Source of the DNA: Fluviicola sp.
GTDB taxonomy: Bacteria > Bacteroidota > Bacteroidia > Flavobacteriales_D > Crocinitomicaceae
DNA length: 64,000 bases
NCBI GenBank assembly: GCA_029866325.1
Contig: JARWZO010000019.1
Span: 310,001 to 374,000 of the forward strand
Direction: 5' to 3'
The position numbers were made by a program, and so were the translations under genes. The notes beneath the pieces were generated by a model. That model was not told the origin of the DNA, did no database searches, and saw nothing but the letters and a program-made list of their open reading frames with translations. Positions 661 to 47,275 of this stretch are shown here, piece after piece. Every line of letters begins with the position of its first letter. Positions within the stretch are counted from its first letter, which is position 1.

Positions 661-3600
661 ATGGCAACATTTGAAATTACGAATCCAGATTCAGAAATTC
701 TGGCAATTCATGCAGTATTACTTCCAACCGGCTCCAAAGGTCAAGTCTTAATTATGGGAGGAGATGAACATAATTTTGATCAGGCGGGGAGAGATGAAAC
801 CCCAGCAACGGTAACTAACGTAGATAATTCTAGAATCTACGATGTTGCCAGTAAAAACATCACCTATATTTCATCCCCCACAACCGATATTTTTTGCAGC
901 GGACACGCCTTTCTTGGTGATGGCAGACTCCTTATTGGAGGAGGAACCGAATCTTGGGAATTAGGTGGTGATGTAGGTCCCGGTGGTGGTCACGATCATA
1001 GTTTAGGTCAATTTGGTGGTCACCAGGCATGTTGGGTGTTTAATTACATTCGCAAAACATGGGAGCGTGTTTCTGATTTTAATTTTGATAATTCATTTGA
1101 TAAGACAGGTGGTGGAAGATGGTATCCAACCTTGGTTAGTTTATCAAACGGTGATGTAATGGCCTTTTCAGGTCATCCTAGTAGAAGAAGTGATCATTGG
1201 CACAATAACGATATACCTGAGCGATATAGTCTTACGGGCAACAACTGGCAATGGATCAAACCCACAGATAGTGAAATTACATTTTACCCAAGGGTACACT
1301 TACTCAAAGGTGGAAAGTTATTCATTTGTTCAGTTGAAGATGGAACAAGTAGGTTGTATGATGCAACTACAGGTGATTTCGGAGCTTCCATAACAGGACC
1401 AACTGACGGGCTTTATACAGGTTGGGATAACTCGTCTGTTTTGTTACCGCTATTACCTGCAGAAAATCATAAGCCTATTGTGTTAATGACCAATGGAAAC
1501 CAGCCGATAAAAATTGATTTAAGTGACTCGACACCAGTTTGGGAAAATGCAGGAACAAGAACAGGTGCTGCGGCTGGGCGCGAAAGAAGATTTGCCTATT
1601 CAACCATTTTACCGGACGGGAAAATTTTAATCAATGGTGGTATTGGCGGCGCAACAAATAATGATGCGAATGCGGTATTGCAGCCAGAAATTTATGATCC
1701 GGGAATTAATTGGACAACAGGTACCTATTCAAATCCGGAAAGTTGGGTTTCTTTACCAGCTGACCCCAATGGAATTGTCCGCAATTACCATTCTACCAGT
1801 TTATTATTACCTGATGGCAGTGTTTTCACAGCAGGCTCAAGTATAAATTCAAACTCTGGGAATCCTGATACAGCAGGCGAAAAACGTATTGAAGTAATCA
1901 AACCAGATTATTTTGACAATCCTGCCAGACCTGATTTAACCGCAGCTCCTAAAAGCGTCACTTACAATCAGCAATTCGATATTGGAACAACTGATTCGAG
2001 TGTCATTCAGCGAGTGGCAATCATCCGAAATGGAACGGCAACACATGCCCTTAATGCTGACCAACGTTACATTGGTTTGGCTTTTGAGGTCGTAAATTCA
2101 ACAACATTGCGGGTGCGAATCCCATCAGATGCCTCCGTTGTGCCTCCGGGTTATTACATGCTTTGGATTATTGACAATGCCGGGCTACCTTGTAAACTTG
2201 CCAAATTCATCCGCATTGCAAATCAAAACTGTGAAATCATTACAGATCGCAGCACTTTTTCTGTATTGGAAGTAGATGCACAGCCAGCTGGAAACGCCAT
2301 TTTTCAAAACGCTTTTTATGTTGTTTATGATGGGTTTATACCTTCTGAATTAAATGATTTTGTGGTTCCTCCAACAATTAGTTTCACGGATGCAACAAGT
2401 AATGCAGTTATCCCTGGAATGAATTCAATTCATGTAAACACCTTGTATGAAGATCCTTCATTGACTCCGGATGTACCCCAAAAAGTAACATTTGTATTCA
2501 ACGTACGATTCTCCTCAAACACCGCATTTACGTTTGCCGGTTTATCGCGAAATGTGACGATCACAGCCAATTTAATTCCTCACAAATGCACGGCAAACAT
2601 CAACCTTATCAAAGCTCCTAATCCGTATATGGTTGACGGCCCAACATCTTGGTTGAGTGTAGATTTACGTGTGTTTCAAATGAGAGAAGGTGGCCCAACA
2701 CGCGCAACAATACCACAAGGAAACTCCGGAACGACTTTTATCAACCAACTACTCACACGATTTAACAACAGGGAAATCTACCCCACAGATGAGCTACATC
2801 CGTTTAATGATATTTCTATAGATCAACAAACATCTCAACTTGAATGGTTAGAAACAAACGGAGGATCGCGGGTATTCAACTATGCTATTGCAAAAGTGAG
2901 ATTCAAAGCTCCGATACCACTCTCTCCACCTTTAACTGCAAATGATGCAACAGATGTCAGGGTATTTTTCAGAATGTTCAATACGGCCGGAACAGCCATG
3001 CAGTTTAATCCGCTGACAACCTACAAAAGAGGTGTAAATGAGGGAAATACAATTGCAGTAGTGGGTAAAGAAGGTAGCGAAATCAGCTCTATTCCTTTTT
3101 TCGCAAGTCCACGAGTGAATTATGGAACCAAACTCATGGCTTCGCAAACGGATAGTCAAAACGTGCAAACTATACCGGCTCTTGGTAACACAGAATCAGT
3201 ATTCTACTTTGGATGTTGGCTTGATTTCAACCAACCTGCACAACAAATTCCAATTAGCGAAGATGCAACTCATGCCACTTCATTGGCCAATCTGCAAACT
3301 AGTATCAGAGGAATTCACCAATGTCTGGTTGCCGAAGTCTTTTTCCCGGGAGATCCAACACCAACAAATGCAACTCCTTCTTCCAGCGACAATTTATCAC
3401 AACGCAATCTCGCAATTGATCATTCCGATAATCCGGGGAGTTTGACAACCCATACTGTTCATCATACTTTTGAAATAAAACCATCACAGTTTGATTTCAG
3501 CCAGTATAGTCTTGACGACACCCAAACTCATTCAATTAATTTGTCTTCCAAAGGCGGAGAAAAAGCTAAGGGCCCCGATTTATTAATGATTCATTGGAAT

Positions 3601-6119: not shown

Positions 6120-6686
6120 CTACTCCACCATCAACGCCAGCGTCAGATGTTTACTCAAAAAGAAAAAAGTAAACAAAAACACAATGTTGCGGTGAATGCT
6201 CGCTTCTTTGTTATCGGCATAAAAACAAACCAACCAAGCAACAAGCGGAGCCATTGCAATGAGGTAACTATTGAATATAAAGCATCCCACAAATCCGGTA
6301 ACCATCAACATTCCCGTTACGCGCAGTGATAGTTTTTTCCATTGCCAGGATACAAAGAGTCCCCAAACCAAAAAAACAAGCGCAAAACCTAGTAGTAAAT
6401 AGTCAATGAAGAAACTGTCTTCGAACCATTGAAAATTGCGTTCGGTGAGAAAAAATTCAAGAATAAAATCGGAAGCAATGAGTTGAAAAACTGCCCATCC
6501 GATAGCCGTAAAGCCAATAAGATCGGGCATTTTGCGTTCGGCAATGTACAGCAAAACAATGGCTGCCAACATGCTTACTTCATACAATGGAAAAGGGAAA
6601 ATCCAGGTATCTTTTTGCATGTAAATGGAAAACCCGAAGATACACGCAGTAAGAATGGTCAATCGAACAACGTGTTCCCTAGTCAT
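6120..6686 (-). CDS. Small polytopic membrane protein of unknown function
   Basis: The 188-residue protein has about six hydrophobic segments (roughly 8-24, 31-48, 56-76, 94-112, 120-156 as one or two helices, and 166-182) with short charged loops such as ERKMPD and KDTW. I do not recognise the family. Its ATG (6684-6686) overlaps the last codons and stop of map by 8 bp, so the two are probably translationally coupled. Confidence 0.65.
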   Translation of the reverse strand: MTREHVVRLTILTACIFGFSIYMQKDTWIFPFPLYEVSMLAAIVLLYIAERKMPDLIGFTAIGWAVFQLIASDFILEFFLTERNFQWFEDSFFIDYLLLGFALVFLVWGLFVSWQWKKLSLRVTGMLMVTGFVGCFIFNSYLIAMAPLVAWLVCFYADNKEASIHRNIVFLFTFFFLSKHLTLALMVE

Positions 6687-12867: not shown

Positions 12868-12896
12868 CCCAAGCTTTTCAAATCTGTGATTGTCTA
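12868..12896 (+). promoter_or_regulatory. Candidate ECF sigma promoter, copy A
   Basis: CCCAAGCTTTT, then 10 nt, then ATTGTCTA, 24 bp before the ATG at 12921. It shares the same two blocks and exact 10-nt gap with copies B, C and D; it is the most divergent copy in the first block. A run of A residues precedes it, as in copies C and D. Confidence 0.65.
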
Positions 12897-12920
12897 TAAA
12901 AACACAAACACATTTTTGAC

Positions 12921-13796
12921 ATGAAAAAAGGACTATTTATTATCGCCGCGCTTTTCACAGCGGGCACACTTACCGCGCAGCAATTACCGAATAACGGTTT
13001 CGAAGACTGGCATACTTTTTTTGCTTCCCAAGCACCCGATTATTGGGTTGGAACCAATCAGATGGTAATAGCAGGCGCCACTCCCGGAATTGAACCCACA
13101 ACCGATGCGCATAGCGGAACTTACGCCGCCAAATTTTCTACTCTTGTATTGGATCTTTTTGGTGAAGAGGTGCTTTACCCAAGCGTGATGTACATTAATT
13201 CCACCCCCGAAACGGATGATGAAGGATGTCCGTTTACCGGCAGGCCCGATTCGTTGGTTGCATGGATAAAATACCTTCCCGGCGGACAAAATCAGTTTCT
13301 TATTCGAGCCGATTTACTAAAATACAATACAACAACACAACAAGTAGAAGAAATTGCCTCAGCTGGTTATGTGGGTACAGAAACAGGAAATAGCTATACG
13401 CGCATTTCGTTTCCGTTCACCTACAATTCTTCGGATACGCCCGATACACTTACGCTCACCATTGCATCAAGTGTAATCGAACCTACGTTAGCATCTACTG
13501 TTTTGATTGTGGATGATCTGCTACTGGTTACAAATAGCGTAGCAGAAGCACAAGAACTAGACACCAAATCGGTTGAGTTTTTTCCCAATCCGGCAAATGA
13601 TTTGCTCTATGTGCGCTCTGAAAAAGAGTTATCCATGATTGAATTGGTGGATTTGAACGGAAAAATAATCCGCACTGTTGCCAACCCATTACCCAATAAT
13701 CCGCTGCAGCTTGATGAACTGGCTGCCGGCACTTTTATTTGCCGTGTGCATACAACCGACGGATTTATTCATCAAGAACGCATTATCAAACAATAA
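12921..13796 (+). CDS. T9SS-exported surface protein with C-terminal sorting domain
   Basis: The 291-residue protein has a signal peptide (MKKGLFIIAALFTAGTLTAQ) and an N-terminal beta-rich domain of about 190 residues beginning LPNNGFEDWHTF. This opening is common in Bacteroidota proteins with a carbohydrate-binding-like jelly-roll. A type A T9SS sorting domain follows (about 215-291: FFPNPANDLLYV, a Leu-rich strand region, and the GKI and AGTFICRV segments). It is therefore expected on the cell surface or released. It carries promoter copy A, so it is a likely target of the sigma factor at 15944. A degraded relative lies immediately downstream. Confidence 0.85.
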   Translation: MKKGLFIIAALFTAGTLTAQQLPNNGFEDWHTFFASQAPDYWVGTNQMVIAGATPGIEPTTDAHSGTYAAKFSTLVLDLFGEEVLYPSVMYINSTPETDDEGCPFTGRPDSLVAWIKYLPGGQNQFLIRADLLKYNTTTQQVEEIASAGYVGTETGNSYTRISFPFTYNSSDTPDTLTLTIASSVIEPTLASTVLIVDDLLLVTNSVAEAQELDTKSVEFFPNPANDLLYVRSEKELSMIELVDLNGKIIRTVANPLPNNPLQLDELAAGTFICRVHTTDGFIHQERIIKQ

Positions 13797-13824
13797 CACC
13801 TCATTCTAACACACCTTGAAAAAG

Positions 13825-13854
13825 TCGTCAGCTTTAGGTTGACGATTTTTTTTT
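13825..13854 (+). terminator. Intrinsic terminator after the T9SS protein gene
   Basis: TCGTCA (13825-13830) pairs with TGACGA (13840-13845) and is followed by nine T residues. It separates the 12921 gene from promoter copy B. Confidence 0.85.
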
Positions 13855-13873
13855 GAGAAAATGTCACCTCCGA

Positions 13874-13902
13874 CCAAAGGTTTTTTAGCTCGTGATTGTC
13901 TA
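13874..13902 (+). promoter_or_regulatory. Candidate ECF sigma promoter, copy B (in front of a gene remnant)
   Basis: CCAAAGGTTTT, 10 nt, ATTGTCTA: identical blocks and spacing to copies C and D. No intact gene follows, only the degraded remnant at 13943. Confidence 0.65.
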
Positions 13903-13942
13903 GTATAATAAGTCAGGCCGTTATTCACATTTGTGAATGCAA

Positions 13943-14100
13943 TCTTGACCGATTTTGGATGATTCCGTTTTTGTTGCAGATGATCTCATACTCGTTACAA
14001 ACGGCACCTCCAAAACTGAAAAAGAAACGAAAATCGAACAATCGTGCACCCCTACCAGTTGTTTGAAAAGAAGGTATTTAAAAAGCACCAAACTGCTTCG
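13943..14100 (+). pseudogene. Remnant of a paralogue of the 12921 T9SS protein
   Basis: In one frame the sequence reads DDSVFVADDLILVTNGTSK, continuing TEKETK. This matches the TVLIVDDLLLVTN...DTK segment just before the sorting domain of the 12921 protein (residues about 193-215). After that, similarity breaks down and the frame is lost, so the sorting domain is not readable. There is a stop just upstream in the same frame, and the signal peptide and N-terminal domain are absent. The remnant sits directly behind promoter copy B, which suggests an internal deletion of a duplicated gene. Exact ends are uncertain. Confidence 0.5.
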
Positions 14101-14204
14101 TTGTTTTCGGATTTCAACCTTGGTCATTTACTCCAGTAAACTCCCAACGTCTTATCCTCAACACCTTGCATTTTACCACTTTTTAAAAACCTTCATGTTT
14201 TCTT

Positions 14205-14239
14205 AAAGAGATTGCCTTTTTAGGCAGTCTCTTTATTGT
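14205..14239 (+). terminator. Intrinsic terminator after the gene remnant
   Basis: AAAGAGATTGCC pairs with GGCAGTCTCTTT (one mismatch) around a T-rich loop. It ends the remnant's transcription unit before promoter copy C. Confidence 0.75.
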
Positions 14240-14276
14240 TAAAAACGCTCTTTTTTATAAAAAAAATTCATTCAAA

Positions 14277-14305
14277 CCAAAGGTTTTAAAGGGTTTCATT
14301 GTCTA
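14277..14305 (+). promoter_or_regulatory. Candidate ECF sigma promoter, copy C
   Basis: CCAAAGGTTTT, 10 nt, ATTGTCTA, 29 bp before the ATG at 14335, with an A-run about 10 bp upstream. Blocks and gap are the same as in copies B and D. Confidence 0.7.
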
Positions 14306-14334
14306 TTAAGTAGAACATTAAAACAAGAATTATT

Positions 14335-14985
14335 ATGAGAAAAGCAGTGAAATTCGGATTCATTTTAGCAGGCTTCATGAGTCTCCATACAATCCACGCG
14401 CAAGAGCAAATAGTTGCACCGGAAGCGGAATTTACAGTTCAACAAAAACACCTCTTTTCAGCAGGTTATTCTCCTGGAGTTCCAATTTTACTTTACGGAA
14501 CGCGTACCTTAATCAATCGTGATACCGATCAATTCAGGTTGCGGAATTCGGGCTCAATGGGAACAATTAATTTAGGTTACGAATACAGGCTGGGGCGTTC
14601 ATTCAGCATGGGAATAACGGGTTATTACAGTCAATTTTCATCTGAAGGAACGATGATCGAAGACTCAACAAACATTGAATCAGATGCAACTTACACCATT
14701 AACCGATTTCGGGTTCAGGCGCGTTTCAATTACTTGTTTAAGGTTTCAGATCCTGACCTTGATCTTTACCTGGGTTGCGCAATCGGTACCAACAAACGCA
14801 TCAATAAACTTTTCATCAATGACGTGCGAAGCGACGATTCAGAACTACCTGTTATCTTGACATTACCGTTTTCAATGAGAGCGTATTTTGGAATGCGTTA
14901 TACGGTTTACCGTAATCTTGGTTTACACATCGAATTCGGTTTGGGCGGACCGGCGGCAACATTCGGGATCAATTACCGTTTTTAA
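14335..14985 (+). CDS. Outer-membrane beta-barrel protein, paralogue of the 15181 protein
   Basis: The 216-residue protein has a signal peptide (to HAQ). Alternating strand segments include MGTINLGYEYRLGRSFSMGITGYYSQF, YTINRFRVQARFNYLF, LDLYLGCAIGTNKR and LHIEFGLGGPAATFGINYRF. It ends in Phe, as outer-membrane barrels normally do. It aligns with the 15181 protein in two marked stretches (NRFRVQA and the C-terminal GLGGP strand), so the two arose by tandem duplication. It has its own candidate ECF promoter and a terminator behind it. Its role is unknown; a stress-responsive or cell-surface role would fit the regulation. Confidence 0.75.
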   Translation: MRKAVKFGFILAGFMSLHTIHAQEQIVAPEAEFTVQQKHLFSAGYSPGVPILLYGTRTLINRDTDQFRLRNSGSMGTINLGYEYRLGRSFSMGITGYYSQFSSEGTMIEDSTNIESDATYTINRFRVQARFNYLFKVSDPDLDLYLGCAIGTNKRINKLFINDVRSDDSELPVILTLPFSMRAYFGMRYTVYRNLGLHIEFGLGGPAATFGINYRF

Positions 14986-15010
14986 CGTGAGCAAAACATA
15001 AGCCCTGATA

Positions 15011-15045
15011 AAGAGGTTGTTGTAAATCGACGACCTCTTACTTTT
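15011..15045 (+). terminator. Intrinsic terminator after the first barrel gene
   Basis: AAGAGGTTGT (15011-15020) pairs with ACGACCTCTT (15030-15039), with one G-T wobble position, followed by ACTTTTT. Confidence 0.8.
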
Positions 15046-15128
15046 TCAATTGAAACTTCCTTCGGAAATGCGGTTGAGGTTCTTTAATTTTGTCCATTGA
15101 ACTTTTTTTTGAAAAAAATCATCTTCGA

Positions 15129-15157
15129 CCAAAGGTTTTTCACTGTACAATTGTCTA
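15129..15157 (+). promoter_or_regulatory. Candidate ECF sigma promoter, copy D
   Basis: CCAAAGGTTTT, 10 nt, ATTGTCTA, 23 bp before the ATG at 15181. It drives the second barrel gene and, because the sigma gene follows 31 bp after that gene, probably the sigma operon too. Confidence 0.7.
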
Positions 15158-15180
15158 CTCGTATAGAAATGGTTCTTATT

Positions 15181-15912
15181 ATGAAGCACATTACACTACA
15201 AGCAATTGCAAATTCGATGCGGCGACTTCGCTTCGGAGCGCTTTCAGCTATGCTTGCACTGGCACTTTTGTTGGTCGTTTTTAAGCCTTTAAACGCTTCA
15301 GCACAAGATTCAACCCGATTTTCTGTGAGTCTCAGTTATGGAGTTGGGGCTTTATTTTTGACTCCGGACTTGCAAAACTATAGTTCCTTTGACTTCGATT
15401 CTACTGCTATGCAAGGATCAACGCGCATAGAACAGTTATCTACAGACTTAAAAATCAAGCCCTTTTTGTTGAAATTCGACATGGATATCACGCCGAAAAA
15501 AAGTATTGGCCTCCAGCTGATTTACAACGGATTCACTTCATCAGGAACTCGCCTTGATTCCATTTGGGTGCCCACATCCGGTACTTACACCGTTGAAGAA
15601 AAAAGCACGAAATACACCATGAATCGTTTTCGGGTTCAAGCCACTTTTACCTGGCATTTTTACCATAAAAACCCATTGTTTGAAAGTTACTTTTATACAG
15701 GCGTTGGCTGGAGCAGAAAGTATCGAAAATACCGTGTTGGCGATGAATATCCGAATTACAGTGAAGCTCCGGTGTTTGATCTCATCAATTTTCCGGTTTC
15801 CATCAGGTTTGCTTACGGTTTTCGGTTCAACTTTACCGAACGTTTTGGCTTACAAACAGAAATTGGACTGGGTGGACCATTATTATCCATTGGCTTATCA
15901 GCCAAGTTTTAA
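15181..15912 (+). CDS. Outer-membrane beta-barrel protein, first gene of the sigma operon
   Basis: From the ATG at 15181 the protein has 243 residues with a long signal peptide (about 1-42, ending NASAQ). Barrel-like strands follow: YTMNRFRVQATFTWHFY, FESYFYTGVGWSRKYRKY, FPVSIRFAYGFRF and a final GLGGPLLSIGLSAKF. The open frame extends upstream to 15097, but that stretch contains the promoter motif at 15129-15157, so the upstream codons are not translated; an ATG at 15169 is the only near alternative. It is a paralogue of the 14335 protein. The position directly before the sigma gene suggests that the sigma factor controls its own operon. Confidence 0.75.
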   Translation: MKHITLQAIANSMRRLRFGALSAMLALALLLVVFKPLNASAQDSTRFSVSLSYGVGALFLTPDLQNYSSFDFDSTAMQGSTRIEQLSTDLKIKPFLLKFDMDITPKKSIGLQLIYNGFTSSGTRLDSIWVPTSGTYTVEEKSTKYTMNRFRVQATFTWHFYHKNPLFESYFYTGVGWSRKYRKYRVGDEYPNYSEAPVFDLINFPVSIRFAYGFRFNFTERFGLQTEIGLGGPLLSIGLSAKF

Positions 15913-15943
15913 CACGTGTTTTGGATAACTAATTACTAGAGAA

Positions 15944-16480
15944 TTGGAACTTGAATTGATAAAACAGTGTTTGAAAGAAGACAGAAGGGCGCAAGAAACC
16001 TTCTACAAAATCTGCTATGCACGTTTCATCGGAACAGCCAGTCGGTATGCCACCAACAAAGAGCAGGCGGTTTTCTTTTTTAACTTAGGCTTTGTGAAAC
16101 TGCTGATGAACCTGAAACAATACAACACTGACAATCCGTTTGATTATTGGGCGAAACGGGTACTCATCAACACCATTTTAAACGAGCTAAAAAAAGAAAA
16201 ACGTGAACAAGACCGGGTACTCATTACCGATGATTGGAATAGCATTTCGGTGAATCACCACGAAGCGGACTACGAAGAAGAACTGAAAGCAAAAATGGAA
16301 CTAATCAAAGAAAAAGTGCAGTTTTTGCCCCCCATGACAAAAAACGTGTTTAACCTCTACGCAATAGATGGTTACAAACACCACGAAATAGCAAGCATGC
16401 TGGATATTAACGAGAATACCAGTATGTGGCATTATTCGGATGCCAAAAAGAAAATTCGCAAACTGTTAGAACTTAATTAA
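15944..16480 (+). CDS. ECF-type RNA polymerase sigma factor
   Basis: A 178-residue sigma-70 family protein of the extracytoplasmic-function type. Region 2 is about residues 8-75 (FYKICYARFIGTASRYATNKEQA, with a DYWAKRVLINTILNELKK end). A short acidic linker follows, and region 4 is about 115-175 (FLPPMTKNVFNLYAIDGYKHHEIASMLDI, the helix-turn-helix). It starts at TTG; no ATG is nearby. It lies 31 bp after the barrel gene and 7 bp before the membrane-spanning partner, so the three genes form one operon. The shared promoter motif upstream of its neighbours is its likely target. Confidence 0.85.
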   Translation: MELELIKQCLKEDRRAQETFYKICYARFIGTASRYATNKEQAVFFFNLGFVKLLMNLKQYNTDNPFDYWAKRVLINTILNELKKEKREQDRVLITDDWNSISVNHHEADYEEELKAKMELIKEKVQFLPPMTKNVFNLYAIDGYKHHEIASMLDINENTSMWHYSDAKKKIRKLLELN

Positions 16481-16487
16481 GCGGCAG

Positions 16488-17792
16488 ATGGAAGACTTTA
16501 CTAACAATCAAAACGATTCTATTCCTGAAGGATTAGAATTCAACGAAAGCTACATGACTCAAGCTTTCGAGATGTACGATGCTGCCAAGAAATCGCGCAA
16601 ACGCCGGTTGTTTATTTGGTTTTGGCGTTCTTCGCTGGGCTTTGCTGCCATTACCGGTATTTCCATTGGAATTTATTTCGCTACACGCGCGGATGAACCT
16701 ACCAGTCAACGAATTCCTGAAACAGCCAAGCATTCCTCTCACAAACAACAGGTTGAATCTACTACTTCAACCTATGGAAAAAAGATCTTGAAGCAGCACG
16801 AAACAAATCAGGCGCAGAAAGCTCTTACGGCAAGCACGACTTCTTCGGAATCAACTCGTGCAACACAAGCCAACAACAACAACAACAACAACCGTAATCA
16901 GAATGGATCAACGTTCGGATCGAATTCAATCGGTACTCCATTGATCGGACAGAACTCTGGAGCTACTCCTCCGTTATCCGCCGGACGTTTTTTAATGTCG
17001 TTATTGAATAGTTCGGGATCACCGCTTTCCAATGCTTTAACCGATCCTGATCGTTTAGCTGACCGAACCAACTCGCCTGATTTAGCGGATAGTGCGGACC
17101 TAAGTAATCGCCCGAACGATTCCGTGCCGGTAATCACCGATAGTTTAACAGCGAATGAAGTTCCTGCAGCTGTCGATTCAGCAGCTTTTAGAAACCGGTT
17201 CGTCAACACGAGTAATCACCACATTTACATGAACTTGGGAGTGAATACCTTGTTTGGAATTTCGGAATTGAAAAACTCCTTCAATATGCGCGAATCGTTT
17301 GGATTGGGATACGATTACACCATCAACAAGCTGTTTTTTGTGAGTATCAATGCCGAATACCATTCCATTTCCAAGATCAATTATTACCGCTACATCGGTG
17401 AAAACACCAAGAGTTCAGCTTCAAGCACGTATTTTACCAAAACTACGCTGAAGTATCTGTCACTGGATCCGAAAATCGGGGTAACCTTTGGGAAACGACA
17501 TTCGGCAACGTTGGGTATGGGATTTGAATACCTGATCAAAGACAAAGACCCGAAATATGAGGTGAAAGGATACACCAATTCGGTATCAAGTATGCCTTCC
17601 GATTATTATTCGACCTTTAATCAGTTCAATGTTTTCGCCAGTATCGGTTACGGCTTTCGTTTCTCTAAAAACGCCAGCCTTTTCGCAACTTACCATTACG
17701 GTTTTTCAGACATTACCCGCAACATGGGTTTGGAAAACACGTTTGATCGCAATAGCAGATTGCAGTTGTTGCTGAGGGTAAAGTTGTATTGA
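16488..17792 (+). CDS. Dual membrane-spanning anti-sigma-like protein with C-terminal beta-barrel domain
   Basis: The 434-residue protein has a short cytoplasmic N-terminus (1-40, acidic then KKSRKRR), one transmembrane helix (about 41-64) and a long Ser/Thr/Asn-rich disordered linker (about 65-240, including a run of Asn at 129-134). The C-terminal domain (about 243-434) has alternating beta-strands typical of outer-membrane barrels (HHIYMNLGVNTLFG, LFFVSINAEYHSISKINYYRY, SIGYGFRFSKNASLFATYHYGF, ending LLLRVKLY). This order matches the Dma proteins described in Bacteroides thetaiotaomicron, which span both membranes and hold an ECF sigma factor at the inner membrane. It directly follows an ECF sigma gene, as expected for its anti-sigma partner. 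The assignment is by architecture, not sequence search. Confidence 0.75.
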   Translation: MEDFTNNQNDSIPEGLEFNESYMTQAFEMYDAAKKSRKRRLFIWFWRSSLGFAAITGISIGIYFATRADEPTSQRIPETAKHSSHKQQVESTTSTYGKKILKQHETNQAQKALTASTTSSESTRATQANNNNNNNRNQNGSTFGSNSIGTPLIGQNSGATPPLSAGRFLMSLLNSSGSPLSNALTDPDRLADRTNSPDLADSADLSNRPNDSVPVITDSLTANEVPAAVDSAAFRNRFVNTSNHHIYMNLGVNTLFGISELKNSFNMRESFGLGYDYTINKLFFVSINAEYHSISKINYYRYIGENTKSSASSTYFTKTTLKYLSLDPKIGVTFGKRHSATLGMGFEYLIKDKDPKYEVKGYTNSVSSMPSDYYSTFNQFNVFASIGYGFRFSKNASLFATYHYGFSDITRNMGLENTFDRNSRLQLLLRVKLY

Positions 17793-46071: not shown

Positions 46072-46671
46072 TTGGGCATTTTCAATAAGCATATCACGCA
46101 TTATACCGACGAGGAGCTGATGAAGGAAATTATCCGGAATCATTCCTCGTTGGCTATTACCGAACTGCACCGTCGTTATAGTAAAAAGCTGCTAGGCTTT
46201 TTTATTAAAATGTTACAGCGAGATGTCGACACGGCCAACGATTTTGTACAGGAATTGTTTTTACGAATTCTCGAAAAAAAACACCTCTACGATCCGGAGA
46301 AAAAATGCTACACATGGATTTTTACCATTGCATCGAACATGTGTAAAACGGCCTATCGTAAAAGTCCGATTGTAGCGCTTTCAAACGATGGATTTGAATT
46401 GCAAAGTCACACTATTGATGGCGATGATCTGGCTGAAAAAAACCGATTCAAAGAGCTGCTGAAAGAAAGCCTCGAACAATTGGAACATCACCATAAAACC
46501 GTATTTGTATTGCGATACATGGAACAATTTAGCCTCAATGAAATAGCCGACATTACGGAAACCTCGCTTGGAACGGTGAAATCGCGCTTGTTTTATGCCA
46601 CAAAAAAAATGACCGAACACCTGAAAGCATTCGACCCGACCTACGAATCAACATTTTTTAAATTGAATTGA
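46072..46671 (+). CDS. ECF-type RNA polymerase sigma factor
   Basis: The 199-residue sigma-70 family protein has region 2 at about 18-88 (ITELHRRYSKKLLGFFIKML, DVDTANDFVQELFLRILEKK, CYTWIFTIASNMCKTAYRK) and region 4 at about 125-185 (HHHKTVFVLRYMEQFSLNEIADITETSLGTVKSRLFYATKKM). It starts at TTG 3 bp after the stop of the upstream gene; an internal ATG at codon 17 is less likely because region 2 begins there. Its partner is the anti-sigma-like protein 1 bp downstream. Confidence 0.88.
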   Translation: MGIFNKHITHYTDEELMKEIIRNHSSLAITELHRRYSKKLLGFFIKMLQRDVDTANDFVQELFLRILEKKHLYDPEKKCYTWIFTIASNMCKTAYRKSPIVALSNDGFELQSHTIDGDDLAEKNRFKELLKESLEQLEHHHKTVFVLRYMEQFSLNEIADITETSLGTVKSRLFYATKKMTEHLKAFDPTYESTFFKLN

Positions 46672-46672
46672 A

Positions 46673-47275
46673 ATGGATAAGCATTTGAACGACAACGAAG
46701 AACGATTGTTTGATCTAGTGGATCAAAAAGAGTTCGATCAGCTCACCACAGAAGAGAAAGCTTTTGTGGAAGCGCATTTTTCGCAGGCAGAATACCGTTT
46801 GCAGCGTCAAATGATCCGTGAATCTGAAAACTTATTCGAACCTGTTTCGGAGACTCCGTCATTGGTGATTTCGGGTTCTTCCTTTACCGGCAAAACGATA
46901 CCTTTGTATCAGGCATTGATTGGCATTGCTGCAACTGTCGTTTTATTCATTTCTATTTGGCCCAATCAAACGGAAACACCGCAACTACCAAACAATAAGC
47001 CAGCATTGAGTAAAACAGATACCGTCATTCAAACGCAAATTATCCGTGACACGATCATTCGTTACAAAAACTACCGGAATGGTAATCAATTGGCCCGAAG
47101 CGAACAACCTAACAAACAAGTTCTGGCAACGCAGATGCGCTTGCTGGAAGCTACCAATTCGGATCCGTTGCCTGATATTGTAAGTGAAATGAATCGCCCT
47201 GCCGGAAGCTCACTCAAAGACGATCCTGCCGCTGAACGTTTGCTGAAAAGCACGTATCGGTCGGATGCAAAATAG
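46673..47275 (+). CDS. Putative anti-sigma factor, single-pass membrane protein
   Basis: The 200-residue protein has a cytoplasmic N-terminal domain (1-76, helical, LFDLVDQKEFDQLTTEEKAFVEAHF) that looks like an anti-sigma binding domain. One transmembrane helix (about 77-96) and a periplasmic Ser/Pro/Asn-rich tail follow. Unlike the 16488 protein it has no beta-barrel domain. It follows the sigma gene by 1 bp. No zinc-binding HxxxCxxC motif is present. Confidence 0.75.
   Translation: MDKHLNDNEERLFDLVDQKEFDQLTTEEKAFVEAHFSQAEYRLQRQMIRESENLFEPVSETPSLVISGSSFTGKTIPLYQALIGIAATVVLFISIWPNQTETPQLPNNKPALSKTDTVIQTQIIRDTIIRYKNYRNGNQLARSEQPNKQVLATQMRLLEATNSDPLPDIVSEMNRPAGSSLKDDPAAERLLKSTYRSDAK

Follow-up and report, generated by a model that had tools for sequence, protein, structure and literature searches.

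Sigma factors of the extracytoplasmic function (ECF) type in Bacteroidetes stand beside a classical (class I) anti-sigma domain in 6% of cases, as against 32% across phyla, according to PMC7406223, and another kind of brake, the dual membrane-spanning anti-sigma (Dma), has been described in Bacteroides thetaiotaomicron together with an ECF21 sigma factor (Das), with an N-terminal anti-sigma region, a membrane segment, a long tether and a C-terminal barrel (PMC13088901). Which genes a sigma factor so placed transcribes, and from which promoter, is the question raised by a locus of Fluviicola sp. lying in a 64,000-nucleotide stretch of contig JARWZO010000019.1 (assembly GCA_029866325.1, positions 310,001 to 374,000), hereafter the window, whose coordinates are used throughout unless another contig is named. 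The locus holds an ECF sigma factor gene at 15944, a Dma-like gene at 16488 and four copies of a two-block element. We consider it very probable, on the strength of the sequence, that this element is an ECF-type -35/-10 promoter read by sigma 15944, which would be braked by the 16488 product and would also drive its own operon. The promoter reading, first offered in an initial annotation, has survived genome-wide and comparative checks, and it is extended here by the candidate anti-sigma factor and by a possible fifth, unlinked site.

A two-block element repeated within one locus

The element reads CCAAAGGTTTT-N10-ATTGTCTA at 13874, 14277 and 15129, its first block is CCCAAGCTTTT at 12868, and the gap is 10 nt in all four copies. 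With up to three mismatches allowed on both strands, these were the only four matches in the window, as the initial annotation had reported, while shuffled versions of the window (n=100) gave a mean of 0.13 matches and a maximum of 1. Across the whole genome (G000, 4.68 Mb) the same threshold returned 10 matches, namely the four window copies, one site with a single mismatch (C32:20399) and five sites with three mismatches; because a backward control pattern gave 9 matches in the same genome, the last five are at noise level and were discarded as regulon members, which leaves only the first five sites as credible. The element is not scattered in front of housekeeping genes.

The four copies head four units (12868 with gene 12921; 13874 with a gene remnant; 14277 with gene 14335; 15129 with gene 15181, the sigma gene and 16488), the features of which are collected in Table 1. 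Three copies had been said to lie 23-29 bp before genes for exported or outer-membrane proteins, and the measured distances to the respective ATG agree, although use of an alternative in-frame ATG at 15169 would bring the start to 11 nt after the end of element 15129. That the remaining copy precedes a remnant also held, the remnant being weakly recognisable by blastn (35 bp at 80% identity, E 1e-4) and tblastn (E 2e-4) as similar to the 3' part of gene 12921; it is not present in the closest relative, G011, where about 400 bp less lie between the genes. The first three units are closed by hairpins that fold far better than their shuffles, and folding against shuffles found no hairpin between 15912 and 15944 (z 1.07 for 15908-15950). 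An AlphaFold model of the 12921 product (mean predicted local distance difference test score, pLDDT, 54.5) is too weak for naming a fold.

Table 1. Coordinates of the promoter copies, genes and hairpins of the locus, with the evidence for each.
Feature	Position	Strand	Evidence or remark
Promoter copy 1 (CCCAAGCTTTT-N10-ATTGTCTA)	12868..12896	+	ends 24 nt upstream of the 12921 ATG; G011 has the orthologous copy (L046:2298)
Exported 291-aa protein, C-terminal sorting domain for type IX secretion	12921..13796	+	PF18962 E 1.5e-07; TIGR04183 E 2.4e-08
Terminator-like hairpin and T tract after the 12921 unit	13818..13852	+	fold -17.3 kcal/mol, z -6.57; missed by pattern scan
Promoter copy 2, before gene remnant	13874..13902	+	element search
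Stretch with remnant related to 3' part of gene 12921	13955..14206	+	blastn, tblastn
Terminator-like hairpin after the remnant unit	14204..14235	+	fold -20.6 kcal/mol, z -7.89
Promoter copy 3	14277..14305	+	ends 29 nt upstream of the 14335 ATG
Probable outer-membrane beta-barrel protein, 216 aa	14335..14985	+	PF13505 E 7.1e-05, 23.5 bits, below cut-off 28.7; homologous to 15181 product
Terminator-like hairpin after the 14335 unit	15011..15039	+	pattern scan and fold, z -6.03
Promoter copy 4, presumed to transcribe 15181, sigma and Dma-like genes	15129..15157	+	ends 23 nt upstream of the 15181 ATG
Second barrel-like envelope protein, 243 aa, paralogue of 14335 product	15181..15912	+	no significant Pfam match of its own
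ECF sigma factor, TTG start	15944..16480	+	PF04542 and PF08281; TIGR02937 E 1.2e-19
Dma-like candidate anti-sigma	16488..17792	+	N-terminus conserved, then a putative membrane segment, a variable tether and, at the C-terminus, a barrel of 8 strands

The shape of the element was measured as information content over 23 sites from seven genomes, that is, 24 site rows less L059, which is identical to L060 (L052 was read as L062, the same site); the C32 site of G011 and a G002 site with an 11-nt gap stand outside this set. Mean values are 1.74 and 1.53 bits in the two blocks, inflated by the choice of sites by pattern, 0.40 in the gap, 0.50 upstream and 0.36 downstream. The sixth position of the second block holds C in 11 sites, T in 11 and A in one, and the whole block is TTGTTTA in 11 of the 23. 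Two features that lay outside the selecting pattern recur as well: an A before CC in 22 of the 23 sites, and a run of at least five A or T within 24 nt upstream, again in 22, versus 13 of 46 control stretches, some of which are coding DNA. Such a run would resemble an UP element. Site and ATG are 22-31 nt apart in 21 of the 24 rows (the ATG at 15181 being counted for 15129), the remaining three having no open reading frame (ORF) of 60 aa there.

The first block contains an ACC-N3-GGT inverted repeat, and could on that account be a transcription-factor operator (a short ACC-AAA-GGT dyad), with the second block belonging to another type of promoter. ACC is kept in 22 of the 23 sites and GGT in 17, however, and this weaker conservation of the right half argues against a symmetric operator; so do the constant gap to the second block in all 23 sites (another site has 11 nt), the single orientation of the blocks at 22-31 nt before start codons, and the conserved unit itself, in which no regulator gene besides the sigma gene was seen. 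We regard an operator as distinctly improbable.

Recurrence in related genomes

Among 14 congeneric genomes, the pattern CCMAAGGTTTT-N10-ATTGTYTA with at most one mismatch gave 22 matches, distributed over seven of them, and a control pattern gave none; comparison of upstream regions, which the initial annotation had proposed as a check, places the element before orthologous genes in six related species. The sigma factor has an orthologue at 69% identity or more in seven of the 14 genomes (best match 32-38% in the other seven), and the sigma orthologue, the 16488 orthologue and the element occur in the same seven.

Support more independent than this co-occurrence would appear to come from three sources. 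The gene for the type IX secretion system (T9SS) protein lies about 9 kb from the sigma gene in G003 and has retained its site; 12921-like genes fetched from the sigma-less genomes G010, G004 and G007 have no site before them; and an unlinked barrel gene on contig C32, taken up below, carries a site. For further 12921-like genes in sigma-less genomes (for example G013:C1:4482815), the genus-wide scan at one mismatch or fewer found no element.

The same comparison bears on the view that the repeats are a side effect of genes having duplicated locally and play no part in regulation. Genes 14335 and 15181 are indeed paralogous, and copy 13874 precedes a decayed relative of 12921; yet the 12921 product has no detected similarity to those of the barrel genes, although its gene has the same site, the blocks recur across seven genomes while spacers and flanks differ, and the displaced G003 gene has kept its site, all of which makes duplication a very improbable explanation. 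An identical extra site was seen in G009 (L060:2047, C19) and G002 (L059:619, C284), followed by about 320 bp without a long ORF. Because the sequence 25 nt past this site opens with ATGAAAAAACAAGCATTATT and in this resembles the beginning of the 12921 orthologue, we read the site by eye as preceding another decayed 12921-like copy, parallel to the remnant at 13874.

The presumed sigma factor operon and its candidate brake

The unit preceded by element 15129 contains an ECF sigma gene, presumably cognate, with matches to sigma-70 regions 2 and 4, and this, together with the two conserved blocks at a fixed spacing before target genes, would place the element among ECF promoters. The gap between 15181 and the sigma gene is 31 nt here and 13-21 nt in six relatives, that between the sigma gene and 16488 is 7 nt here and 6-9 nt in the relatives, the range over all seven genomes thus being 6-9 nt. 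The initial annotation had supposed that the last promoter also transcribes the sigma gene; because this gene belongs to the last unit and is parted from 15181 by 31 bp that hold no hairpin, such co-transcription may be presumed and autoregulation through promoter 15129 is likely. By alignment, the start codon is TTG or GTG in all seven orthologues, which perhaps keeps the sigma factor scarce relative to its brake. Their residues 64-88 are invariant, as are residues 142-170 except residue 152.

The 16488 product is probably the anti-sigma factor of sigma 15944. Alignment of relatives gives it a highly conserved N-terminus that starts PEGLEFNESYM..., a putative membrane segment, a poorly aligning tether and a conserved C-terminal barrel, an architecture that would match the four-part organisation described for Dma proteins (PMC13088901). 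The barrel matches PF13505 at E 5.3e-06 with 27.2 bits, just under the cut-off of 28.7. An AlphaFold model built from a five-sequence alignment (mean pLDDT 47.5) has eight strands within residues 244-433, with ten-residue pLDDT means of 37-88, and nothing reliable before residue 240; the structures that Foldseek ranks highest for it are barrels of the outer membrane, but at low TM-scores (OmpW, for instance, at E 1.3e-3 and TMt 0.44). The tether, at residues ~67-240, aligns poorly among five relatives and has pLDDT values of 24-38 in this overall weak model, and may be disordered. Each of another 23 sigma homologues from the order is followed by a large ORF, several of these ORFs being cut by the end of the fetched stretch, and in 16 of the 23 a strongly hydrophobic segment (at least 1.6) falls within the first 120 residues of the ORF. 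The Dma-like gene of G008, a metagenome assembly, is split between two reading frames (L011:6546-8061), which may be real or an assembly error.

These parts can be arranged into a mechanism, in which A-CCAAAGG-TTTT would serve as -35 and ATTGTC/T-TA as -10. At rest, the 16488 protein would keep the sigma factor at the inner membrane through its short cytoplasmic N-terminus, and the tether of the protein would span the periplasm as far as the barrel in the outer membrane. Some change, perceived in the outer membrane or by the tether, would set the sigma factor free, either by proteolysis or by a conformational change. The freed sigma factor would then transcribe the genes for one T9SS-exported protein, two small barrel proteins and possibly a third barrel protein encoded elsewhere, and would make more of itself and of its brake, a positive autoregulation limited by the co-made anti-sigma factor. 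It is a tentative further step, and one we hold to be rather doubtful, to see here a closed outer-membrane feedback loop, in which a trans-envelope anti-sigma barrel reports the status of barrel or surface proteins and the freed sigma factor makes dedicated small barrels and a T9SS surface protein through a class of promoter undescribed for Dma-linked sigma factors.

The possible third barrel gene is that on C32. The site there (C32:20399; L062:2400-2428 in G000) has one mismatch and precedes an unlinked outer-membrane-barrel gene, after which come another ECF sigma gene and a gene whose 639-aa product has a hydrophobic segment and is repetitive in its C-terminal part. It is present in G000 and weaker in G011, and none was found before the C32 barrel gene in G004 and G005, two genomes without a sigma 15944 orthologue in which no neighbouring sigma gene was seen either. 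This barrel gene is possibly a target of sigma 15944, though the case is ambiguous, since a different sigma gene lies downstream of it in both G000 and G011 and since the two differences between these sites affect the blocks and leave the spacer unchanged.

These two features of C32 count against the proposed regulon, and they are not alone in this. One orthologous site, in G002, departs from the fixed spacing with its gap of 11 nt. Sigma-bearing genomes also have paralogues of 12921 and 15181 at other places (e.g., G008:C24:75042, G000:C6:42406, G000:C32:151507), and these lack a site at one mismatch or fewer, so that the element does not mark whole gene families. The co-occurrence of sigma factor, Dma-like protein and element is partly circular, because most sites lie inside the sigma locus, and all seven genomes may come from a single clade. 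The membrane segment of the 16488 product is weak, with a hydropathy of 1.39 (1.36 in G011, 1.97-2.06 in five relatives), and the AlphaFold model has no helix there. Finally, G000 contains 36 matches to a Bacteroidota sigma-factor family, one of them over the cut-off, and therefore another sigma factor of the genome could read the sites, its neighbour 15944 having other targets; the similar site before a barrel gene that adjoins another sigma gene on C32 would fit this. We nevertheless judge it unlikely, given that the element and sigma 15944 share their distribution over the 14 genomes, that the sites flank the 15944 operon, and that the ~1.5-kb flanks of 23 non-orthologous sigma loci, scanned on the sigma strand, hold no match at three mismatches or fewer, the best being one with 4 mismatches and an 11-nt gap and one with 5 mismatches.

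Whether sigma loci of this kind generally carry repeated elements was scored over 25 related loci with ATG-only ORFs and 25 shuffles each, the smallest possible p being 0.038. Four loci reached that value, about one being expected by chance: the window locus, where the top pair was the A tract with the -35 block instead of -35 with -10, and L055, L053 and L124. The repeats of L053 (partly inside coding DNA) and L124 (T-rich) were set aside as implausible by eye. A convincing locally repeated motif thus occurs in only two of the 25, the window locus and L055, and a general rule of such two-block elements is unsupported. At L055 (G000:C30; L055 positions 3535-3565 and 6120-6150, minus strand), TTCCAACCA-N13-ACAGTCCTA stands before two genes that bracket a second sigma-Dma pair; it has two copies in G000 and, at one mismatch or fewer, none in the other 13 genomes, in which the presence of an orthologue of that sigma factor was unchecked. 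We take it as a parallel to the window locus, not as proof. At 46072-47275 the window itself encodes another ECF sigma factor and, downstream of it, a 200-aa protein without a Pfam barrel match, and no copy of the element is found there.

Relation to known systems and significance

The proposed promoter shares with classical ECF promoters under cognate autoregulation (RpoE type) its two blocks, their fixed spacing, a GTC-like -10 core and the inclusion of the cognate sigma gene in the proposed regulon. The -35 of RpoE-type promoters is of the GGAAC type, whereas here it would be CCAAAGG, with an A/T tract upstream. Non-canonical -30/-10 promoters with a TGTT core near -10 have been linked to the B. 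thetaiotaomicron ECF sigma factors SigW-1 and SigH-1 (PMC12596196; PM2 of PMC7366714), the SigW-1 motif not being significant in PMC12596196. The TTGTTTA form of the second block recalls that core, but sigma factors and targets are others, and the comparison covers the -10 region. With PorXY-SigP of Porphyromonas gingivalis the locus has in common an ECF sigma factor linked to type IX secretion; as described, SigP works with a two-component system on the T9SS machinery, not with a barrel-bearing anti-sigma factor.

The nearest likeness by description is with Dma/Das, where the sigma gene likewise adjoins a gene for a protein of the four-part architecture that is proposed here for the 16488 product. 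Loss of Dma2 in B. thetaiotaomicron raises das2 (log2 fold change 4.54) and adjacent genes, which are among the most raised in the results given in PMC13088901, and this is what the present layout would predict. The differences are that the host belongs to another lineage of Bacteroidota, that the neighbours here encode barrel proteins and a T9SS protein, and that a repeated private promoter is visible. According to PMC7366714, none of the B. thetaiotaomicron ECF sigma factors had a known recognition motif in 2020, and some motifs have been proposed since (PMC12596196). The literature searched, which excluded the original Dma, ECF reclassification and EcfO papers, yielded no account of the promoter of any Dma-linked sigma factor; the words motif and consensus have 0 occurrences in the Dma2 paper (PMC13088901).

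The layout would thus belong to the known Dma kind, and the most useful new element appears to be a defined promoter together with its targets. Since one locus unites a sequence-defined promoter, a short list of targets and a candidate brake that would span the envelope, one can now ask to what such brakes respond and what they govern, and the private promoters would make the targets of this sigma-factor switch directly testable. The locus may also supply an orthogonal pair of promoter and sigma factor for the genetics of Bacteroidota.

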